From Candidatus Parcubacteria bacterium (GTDB lineage Bacteria > Patescibacteriota > Patescibacteriia > PEXW01): a DNA stretch of 14,957 nucleotides. The translations under genes were made by a program, and so were the position numbers. The stretch lies in assembly GCA_003597955.1 (NCBI GenBank), contig QZJU01000017.1:1-14957 (forward strand), read 5' to 3'. The notes under the pieces were generated by a model. It searched no databases. It was given only the letters and a program-made list of their open reading frames with translations, and was not told the DNA's origin. This document shows, in pieces, positions 8,113 through 9,295 of this stretch (the first letter of the stretch is position 1; every line of letters starts with the position of its first letter).

Positions 8113-8158
8113 AAAATAAGCACTACGCCATAAGCTTTTTGGGGTAATGCTCATTTGT

Positions 8159-8653
8159 GCCCACGCCAACTTATAAGCCGAATTCTGTCTGCCATTTTTT
8201 GAAAAATGGGAGACGGCTATCTCTCTTGACCCCGCATTACTGCGGGATTCTAGCAGCCAACCCGTCCCAGTACCAATCGCTTTCGCTTCCGGTACGGGAC
8301 CTACTTGGCCTTGCACTAAAGAGGGTTTGCCACAAGCCGCATCACTGCGGGCTCGCGTGGTCTCTTAAGCCACGATTTCACCCTTACTCACCTCCGCGCG
8401 CTAAAAGCGAGCGAAGATGGGCGGTATATTTTCTGTTGCTTAAAGAATAAAGTCGCCTTTATTCTTTAAATCCCGTACCGCATTTTGCAGCACAGGACAC
8501 TTTCCCGAGGCTTGGAATGTTCAAAAACTCGCGAGGACTTTTTGAACACTCTTACTCCTGGTTGCCGTTAGCAACTCTCCTTTGCTCCGCTTTTTGCGGA
8601 GAGTGTTCGGACTTTCCTCCCTGTAAAAGGGCAGCCGTCTTGTTGACGTAGGC
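8159..8653 (-). ncRNA. rnpB: RNase P RNA (class A)
   Basis: The catalytic RNA of ribonuclease P, which trims tRNA 5' leaders. Read on the minus strand, it contains the conserved GGAGGAAAGTCCG near the 5' end, GAGTAAGGGTGAAA in the middle and GACAGAATTCGGCTTATA near the 3' end, all universally conserved parts of the bacterial class A core. The ends are set by helix P1: 8642-8653 and 8159-8170 form 12 consecutive pairs (two are G-U). The length of 495 nt is slightly above the usual 350-450, with room for extended peripheral helices such as the AT-rich stem (AAAGAATAAAG...CTTTATTCTTT) near 8440-8470. A promoter with the right spacing lies directly upstream, and no clear terminator follows. Confidence 0.95.
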
Positions 8654-8718: not shown

Positions 8719-8747
8719 TTGACGAAGGCTTATTTTATGCTAATAAT
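8719..8747 (+). promoter_or_regulatory. Promoter of the tRNA-Tyr locus
   Basis: TTGACG (8719-8724) and AATAAT (8742-8747) are separated by 17 bases, each matching the consensus at five of six positions. The start would lie near 8754, ahead of the first tRNA segment at 8767. The transcript would cover the whole nested tRNA locus and probably the 70-aa ORF at 9083. Confidence 0.6.
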
Positions 8748-8766
8748 TGATTATTGAGTTGTCGTG

Positions 8767-8796
8767 GGGTGGATACCGAAGTGGTCAAACGGGGCA
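8767..8796 (+). pseudogene. 5' segment of an interrupted tRNA-Tyr
   Basis: These 30 bases are identical to 8819-8848, the first 29-30 positions of the intact tRNA-Tyr (acceptor strand, D arm and half of the anticodon stem). The match stops abruptly after the A at 8796, where an AT-rich sequence begins. Together with 8924-8929 and 8960-9010 they would add up to a full tRNA-Tyr. Alone, this segment cannot fold into a tRNA. Confidence 0.8.
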
Positions 8797-8809
8797 AATA
8801 ATAATCACT

Positions 8810-8910
8810 AGGATGGGTGGGTGGATACCGAAGTGGTCAAACGGGGCAGACTGTAAATCTGCTGGCCTTGCGCCTTCGGAGGTTCGATCCCTCCTCCACC
8901 CACCCATCCT
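8810..8910 (+). repeat. 16-bp inverted repeat extending the tRNA acceptor stem
   Basis: AGGATGGGTGGGTGGA (8810-8825) is the exact reverse complement of 8895-8910. The inner seven pairs are the acceptor stem of the intact tRNA-Tyr. The outer nine pairs extend this helix beyond the mature tRNA ends. The precursor would therefore carry the tRNA on a continuous 16-bp helix that RNase P and the 3' processing enzymes must open or cut. Confidence 0.75.
8819..8902 (+). tRNA. tRNA-Tyr (anticodon GTA), intact
   Basis: A complete class II tRNA of 84 nt: acceptor GGGTGGA (8819-8825) with TCCACCC (8895-8901), D stem CCG/CGG, anticodon stem GCAGA (8846-8850) with TCTGC (8858-8862), loop CTGTAAA with anticodon GTA (8853-8855), a long variable arm (8863-8877), T arm GGAGG-TTCGATC-CCTCC (8878-8894) and discriminator A at 8902. 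The G1-C72 pair and A73 are bacterial tyrosine identity elements. The mature CCA is not encoded (CCC follows), so it must be added after transcription. The cognate synthetase gene tyrS lies convergent at 9357-10520. It sits inside an insert that splits a second tRNA-Tyr copy. Confidence 0.96.
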
Positions 8911-8929
8911 ATTAGATTCTAGAGACTGT

Positions 8930-8959
8930 TCCGCCATAGGCGGATCCGGCTCTGCCGGA
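8930..8959 (+). repeat. 30-nt double hairpin inside the interrupted tRNA-Tyr
   Basis: Two perfect 15-nt hairpins stand back to back: TCCGCC-ATA-GGCGGA (8930-8944) and TCCGGC-TCT-GCCGGA (8945-8959). They are placed exactly between GACTGT (8924-8929) and AAATCTGC (8960 on), sequences that are contiguous in the intact tRNA-Tyr, so the block interrupts the anticodon between its second and third bases. It looks like a small palindromic insertion. Confidence 0.7.
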
Positions 8960-9010
8960 AAATCTGCTGGCCTTGCGCCTTCGGAGGTTCGATCCCTCCT
9001 CCACCCACCA
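8960..9010 (+). pseudogene. 3' segment of an interrupted tRNA-Tyr, with CCA
   Basis: The 50 bases 8960-9009 are identical to 8855-8904 of the intact tRNA-Tyr: third anticodon base, 3' anticodon-stem strand, variable arm, T arm, acceptor strand and discriminator. Unlike the intact copy, this one continues with a genome-encoded CCA (9008-9010). It is preceded by the 30-nt double hairpin and, before that, by the anticodon-loop piece GACTGT (8924-8929). Confidence 0.8.
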
Positions 9011-9082: not shown

Positions 9083-9295
9083 TTGGGAACTTTTACTGAG
9101 AAGTTGAAAACGGCCACCTACTCGGTCCACCATAATCCAAACTGTCCAAGCCCTTTTCAAGTCCGTCTTGTCGGACGAAAAGCTTGGAGGTTAGACAATC
9201 TTCCACCTGGAAAAACTCAAGATATTATCGGACATGGAACTTCCATGGAAGAGGCCGCTAAAGATGTATGGCTGAAGAAACACCAAAAGCCGTAA
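9083..9295 (+). CDS. Small protein of unknown function (70 aa, TTG start)
   Basis: The reading frame is open far upstream, but that part runs through the tRNA locus. The real start is set by a strong Shine-Dalgarno AGGAGG (9071-9076) six bases before TTG (9083-9085). The 70-aa product is basic and begins MGTFTEKLKTATYSVHHNP. It has an internal VRLVGRKAWRLDNL stretch that looks like paired beta strands, and ends with a helix (TSMEEAAKDVWLKK). The beta-beta-helix order with an EEA helix faintly recalls HicB-like or dsRNA-binding small folds, but I do not recognise the family. It probably shares the tRNA-Tyr transcript and is convergent to tyrS. Function unknown. Confidence 0.7.
   Translation: MGTFTEKLKTATYSVHHNPNCPSPFQVRLVGRKAWRLDNLPPGKTQDIIGHGTSMEEAAKDVWLKKHQKP

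Follow-up and report, generated by a model that had tools for sequence, protein, structure and literature searches.

By analogy, the nearest known case to the bacterial GIY-YIG elements described below would be SegB of phages T4 and T6, a free-standing GIY-YIG homing endonuclease encoded in the tRNA region. In the sections of the source considered here, SegB cuts inside tRNA genes, with RAWTSGAAC as its preferred motif, and amplification of the tRNA-Tyr segment depends on this enzyme (PMC13096335). On the opposite strand, this motif matches the tRNA T-arm (GTTC..). RNA hairpins near the start can regulate T4 homing genes, according to the part of a second article that was covered (PMC2988022). 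As far as these excerpts go, the phage and bacterial systems are alike in that a GIY-YIG gene lies beside tRNAs and the range of isotypes is wide (PMC13096335; PMC2988022). They are unlike in that SegB is encoded by a phage gene, for which the excerpts describe no displaced tRNA fragments with double hairpins, whereas the elements analyzed here reside on bacterial contigs, flanked by a fragment and an intact copy of a tRNA, and encode putative cutting enzymes.

Islands located in tRNA genes offer a second comparison. In the portion of the Islander article used here, such an island has a tyrosine integrase, and its target is split, with a displaced fragment and a regenerated gene (PMC4383910). 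A regenerated target and a displaced fragment are found at our loci too; unlike the islands of that excerpt, the unit spans a few hundred bp, contains a GIY-YIG gene and is associated with fragments that bear hairpins (PMC4383910).

By sequence, the nearest solved structures to the encoded proteins are those of UPF0213-type small GIY-YIG proteins (PDB 1zg2 and 1ywl), which are similar in size and whose solved examples are named hypothetical. Double-hairpin elements, composed of two GC-rich hairpins in tandem, occur in fungal and algal mitochondria. Tandem GC-rich hairpins are also present here, in the loops of RNA genes; judging by partial accounts of the mitochondrial elements, the difference is that ours are bacterial and are tied to tRNA fragments and GIY-YIG genes. 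In archaea, split and intron-bearing tRNA genes are known, i.e., genes that are in pieces or interrupted in the anticodon region. Both features recur in the tRNA-Tyr locus reported below, but there the anticodon is interrupted after its second nucleotide, an intact copy accompanies the pieces, and neither a splicing endonuclease nor RtcB was found.

In this study, we analyzed a contig of 14,957 bp (the window, i.e., the whole stretch of DNA examined) from a Patescibacteria genome of approximately 990 kb that is 98.5% complete. The window contains an intact tRNA-Tyr gene nested between two halves of a second one. We consider it likely that the intact copy is the functional tRNA-Tyr gene and that the outer halves are relics, displaced when an element encoding a small GIY-YIG endonuclease invaded the tRNA-Tyr gene.

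The tRNA-Tyr locus of the window

All features of the locus are on the forward strand. The intact tRNA-Tyr (8819-8902; anticodon GTA; Rfam RF00005, 58 bits) has no encoded CCA. It sits between a displaced 5' fragment at 8767-8796, which corresponds to nt 1-30 of the intact copy (30/30 identity), and a displaced 3' fragment at 8960-9010, in which 8960-9007 correspond to nt 37-84 (100% identity) and 9008-9010 encode CCA. Thus, the first-pass annotation, which described a tRNA-Tyr flanked by copies of its own 5' and 3' parts, was correct on this point. The covariance-model check that it proposed was carried out with Rfam, along with ARAGORN, and both detect the inner tRNA alone, which is the sole full tRNA-Tyr gene found in the genome. 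The 27 nt directly before the 5' fragment (8740-8766, CTAATAATTGATTATTGAGTTGTC) are identical in a sister species, G001, in which they also directly precede the 5' fragment; judged from this conservation, they would probably have served as the promoter or leader of the original tRNA-Tyr gene.

The six nucleotides missing between the outer halves, GACTGT (nt 31-36), are found by direct reading at 8924-8929, where they begin the 3' fragment. When 8767-8796, 8924-8929 and 8960-9010 are joined, the product is exactly the intact tRNA-Tyr plus CCA, as had been noted. This parse is slightly ambiguous, since AGACTGT at 8923-8929 is a 7-nt match. A junction composed of GACTG, the hairpins and the 3' half is common to the window and two relatives (G001 and G003) and is therefore not due to chance. 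The exact sum of the two outer pieces, however, is probably a coincidence in part, because the corresponding pieces overlap in G001. The interruption of the outer copy within its anticodon, previously described as a 30-nt insert, was confirmed and can be described more precisely: it consists of two adjacent perfect 6-bp hairpins (8930-8959; TCCGCC-ATA-GGCGGA followed by TCCGGC-TCT-GCCGGA; -18.7 kcal/mol), placed between nt 2 and 3 of the fragment's anticodon.

It had also been suggested that the nested locus is a genuine precursor, from which the interrupted outer copy would be matured by splicing or other processing into a second tRNA-Tyr, with an encoded CCA. In favor of this view, the unmutated halves add up to a perfect tRNA followed by CCA, and in the fold predicted for the entire region they are paired around the inner tRNA. 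Nevertheless, we regard this explanation as very improbable. Splicing endonuclease (PF01974) and RtcB (PF01139) have no match in the 98.5% complete genome. Rfam searches yielded no match to a group I intron or any other intron family in the window, where only RNase P RNA and tRNA reach gathering scores. In addition, the outer copies in G001 and G003 are damaged by deletions or further inserts, and the genome has both an intact tRNA-Tyr and a match to the CCA-adding enzyme family.

The locus in relatives and other tRNA genes of the genome

The genomes used for comparison were Patescibacteria, two of which, a Kerfeldbacteria MAG and a Parcubacteria MAG, belong to the same class. A DNA search found separate tRNA-Tyr pieces at one place in 7 of 57 genomes, as counted from the match list. 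The most informative arrangement is that of G001, in which the shared upstream sequence is followed by a 5' fragment, a decayed GIY-YIG gene (PF01541 match at G001:C35:614-766, E=2.7e-8), the intact tRNA-Tyr and a hairpin-interrupted 3' fragment, with hairpins in both outer pieces. G003 matches the window at 8924-8989, i.e., the hairpins and the start of the 3' half, with 97% identity. In G008, two units composed of a fragment and an ORF lie upstream of the intact tRNA-Tyr, and G056 has one such unit. A simple array of three whole, decaying tRNAs, which the first-pass annotation had named as an outcome in relatives that would refute it, was not seen in the genomes compared.

The window itself has no ORF between the fragments and the intact tRNA, only gaps of approximately 20 nt, and PF01541 is absent from it, although this domain is encoded elsewhere in the genome and in relatives. 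The spacer at 8797-8818, which with its 3' part provides the leader arm for the extended helix described below, resembles the tail of the decayed gene in G001; together, spacer and tRNA start agree with this tail at approximately 17 of 22 positions, counted by eye. The spacer is thus probably what remains of the tail of a GIY-YIG gene that has been deleted, and the window would most simply derive from a G001-like state by loss of the ORF, a deduction drawn from one sister species and a short spacer.

These comparisons also bear on assembly error. Short repeats at the locus could favor such an error, but the upstream flank, the junction and the unit of hairpins and 3' half are shared by independent assemblies of relatives, and the same nesting occurs at a second locus of the genome, so that we give assembly error next to no credence. 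The second locus is that of tRNA-Ala(tgc), in which a fragment with nt 1-35, the intact gene and a fragment with nt 36-76 follow one another as in tRNA-Tyr.

Fragments adjoin intact genes for many other tRNAs of this genome. BLAST detected them for Tyr, Ala(tgc), Val(gac), Val(tac), Phe, Ala(ggc), Asp and others, whereas those beside Glu, Leu(tag) and Ser(cga) tRNAs were recognized by reading; the BLAST thresholds undercount fragments broken by several hairpins and missed these three. Their order is fragment, hairpins, small GIY-YIG nuclease ORF and intact tRNA. In Val, fragments with the same T-loop hairpins occur on both sides of the intact gene. Tandem GC-rich double hairpins in the loops of RNA genes thus include not only 8930-8959 but also inserts in D-, anticodon and T-loops, such hairpins being present in many fragments, among them those beside the Val, Glu, Leu, Ser, Phe and Asp genes. 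In Tyr, Glu and Ser alike, the anticodon insert separates anticodon base 2 from base 3.

Two further loci were observed. A small GIY-YIG gene of the same genome lies directly downstream of the tmRNA gene (L035:936-1713). At L042:1834-2106, ARAGORN calls a tRNA with an anticodon-loop intron, which reads as tRNA-Thr(GGT) interrupted by a group I-like insert; this insert has no Rfam intron match at gathering score, and a 5' fragment is located just upstream.

GIY-YIG ORFs and double hairpins at tRNA genes across phyla

The anatomy of the locus, its recurrence and its association with GIY-YIG genes are observed well outside tRNA-Tyr. GTDB genomes were scanned with a single protein from G056, yielding 40 loci from Patescibacteria, Bacteroidota, Chlorobiota, Omnitrophota, Margulisbacteria, KSB1, Raymondbacteria and Acidobacteria. 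In 34 of the 40, no more than approximately 160 nt separate the ORF from a tRNA, with both invariably on one strand and with many isotypes represented; as the query is itself tRNA-adjacent, this sample is biased towards relatives of a tRNA-adjacent gene. A less biased sample was composed of small PF01541 ORFs (n=35) from nine genomes. Eighteen of these are within 150 nt of a tRNA, with approximately 0.4 expected (P ~6e-27), and all 18 are on the tRNA strand. In 28 of the 35 G056-derived loci that hold an intact tRNA, BLAST also detected a piece of that tRNA, compared with 5 of 882 control queries with other isotypes; at the thresholds used, such counts are too low where several hairpins break up a fragment.

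Three forms of the arrangement were distinguished. In the first, a tRNA fragment, usually with a double hairpin in the T-loop or anticodon loop, is followed by a nuclease ORF of approximately 230 bp and the intact tRNA. The second is its mirror image, with the intact tRNA followed by the ORF and a 3' fragment. In the third, hairpin-bearing tRNA arms lie on both sides of a unit composed of ORF and tRNA. In the 22 loci that were read, the fragment extends to the T-loop, with the double hairpin between GGTTC and GAATCC, and a short stretch, the ORF and the intact tRNA follow; in the alternative order, the intact tRNA with its own 3' flank precedes the ORF and a 3' fragment with T-loop hairpins. 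In some loci of mirror order, a copy of the tRNA 3' flank follows the 3' fragment.

Across the 40 loci, a strict motif of GGTTC, two hairpins and GAAT was counted 15 times; the 15 copies are distributed over 11 loci and invariably share the strand of the ORF, and shuffled sequences yielded none. The hairpin arms of the motif vary between loci, yet remain complementary. The same pattern was not found in the loci scanned in the window's own genome, where the inserts have other flanks (e.g., in Val and Glu). Two loci, L138 and L139, have identical T-arm double-hairpin repeats near a GIY-YIG ORF and no recognized tRNA within the stretch examined around it.

The pattern could alternatively reflect unequal recombination in a tandem tRNA-Tyr array and its subsequent decay, with generic palindromic repeats in dead copies and incidental GIY-YIG genes. 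Consistent with this possibility, fragment ends vary, tandem arrays are found at three loci (L145, L150 and L155), and some fragments, including those of the window, have no ORF. We nonetheless consider it unlikely: the GIY-YIG ORFs are strongly and strand-specifically tied to tRNAs and to a fragment of the same tRNA, and the hairpins recur in matching positions of the loops, as well as in the form of direct repeats that bound ORF and tRNA. Recombination between tandem copies, also raised in the first-pass annotation, may contribute to the formation of the repeats. Similarly, a relic of a phage or island that was integrated in the tRNA gene by a tyrosine recombinase would explain a displaced fragment and a regenerated gene, the usual island footprint in the part of the source considered (PMC4383910). 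However, no tyrosine integrase lies between fragment and gene: in the loci read, this gap is a few hundred bp and holds a GIY-YIG ORF, and in the window it is approximately 20 nt. Double hairpins in the fragment are likewise not part of the footprint in that excerpt (PMC4383910), and such an origin appears highly improbable.

The proposal of a mobile, tRNA-carrying insert fared better, as relatives have a GIY-YIG gene between fragment and tRNA and the arrangement recurs across tRNAs and phyla. On balance, the data favor an undescribed class of miniature mobile elements, in which a small GIY-YIG gene would both target tRNA genes and carry them along as cargo, bounded by double-hairpin tRNA arms. 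The class would include members in Patescibacteria, Bacteroidota, Omnitrophota, Margulisbacteria and others, and the window would be an ORF-less descendant. No description of the bacterial element was found in the literature searched, preprints and most subscription papers being outside its scope.

Cutting, homing and the roles of the hairpins are inferred as follows. The nuclease would cut tRNA genes at a conserved arm, and repair of the break would copy in the ORF along with as much of the tRNA as is needed to make the gene whole again, leaving the displaced piece outside. As the SegB motif on the other strand corresponds to the T-arm, which is the hairpin site in many bacterial fragments, we propose that the bacterial ORFs encode homing-type nucleases. 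The hairpins split the T-arm sequence in fragments and might split the cut site or serve as ends of the element. The intact tRNA retains the T-arm sequence and would seem exposed to renewed cutting if the nuclease recognizes that arm, which counts against the homing interpretation. A further point against it is that, in the window, the hairpins are located in the anticodon loop rather than at the T-arm motif. Each new round would split the current intact gene, so that the intact gene is innermost and relics lie outside; the window would then have lost the ORF along with its left hairpin. Hairpins ahead of ORFs may have a second role in regulation, as for T4 homing genes.

Isotype-specific homing was considered and rejected. 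Mapping of tRNA isotypes on the GIY-YIG tree gave 23 changes, compared with a mean of 24.3 after shuffling, and only Ser showed weak clustering. Since the ORFs do not group by isotype, they appear to move between tRNA genes, and any target specificity would be loose. One such ORF matched seven phage records, all with less than 60% identity.

Several small GIY-YIG genes with no obvious role are present per genome in these streamlined bacteria, and many of them are likely to be selfish dwellers of tRNA genes. This role would explain why essential genes are surrounded by hairpins and pieces of broken tRNA, and would connect a phage mechanism, that of SegB, with bacterial chromosomes. Such loci also provide a testing ground for how selfish genes can live in RNA genes that are essential while the host stays viable.

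The extended acceptor helix and neighboring genes

The inner tRNA was initially described as sitting on a perfect 16-bp helix. The helix is real, and the 5' arm at 8809-8825 pairs with the 3' arm at 8895-8911 at 17 of 17 positions. We tested the idea that it insulates the inner tRNA from the outer halves. When the leader arm was randomized, mean acceptor pairing decreased from 0.98 to 0.69, and it was restored together with complementarity. Pairing with randomized leaders was also 0.69 when the outer halves were omitted, which indicates no specific insulation, and the idea was rejected.

The inner tRNA-Tyr is directly followed by CCC instead of CCA. By ARAGORN boundaries, 39 of the 43 listed tRNAs of the genome end in CCA, a count that includes the Tyr copy, whose ends ARAGORN shifts. 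A match to the CCA-adding enzyme family is present in the genome; judged from this match, the inner tRNA-Tyr could gain its CCA from such an enzyme, which weakens the argument that it is non-functional for want of CCA. Leader-trailer pairing extends the acceptor stem by at least 7 bp in 7 of the 43 tRNAs (control, 0.7%). Among these are Pro(tgg), Pro(ggg), Ser(tga) and Tyr, in all of which CCC occupies the expected position of CCA.

Directly 3' of the tRNA locus, a small ORF without a Pfam match is located at 9083-9292 on the forward strand. Compared with the Rfam model, the RNase P RNA gene on the reverse strand (8158-8650) contains approximately 100 additional nucleotides as an insertion, which falls in a stretch rich in short inverted repeats.
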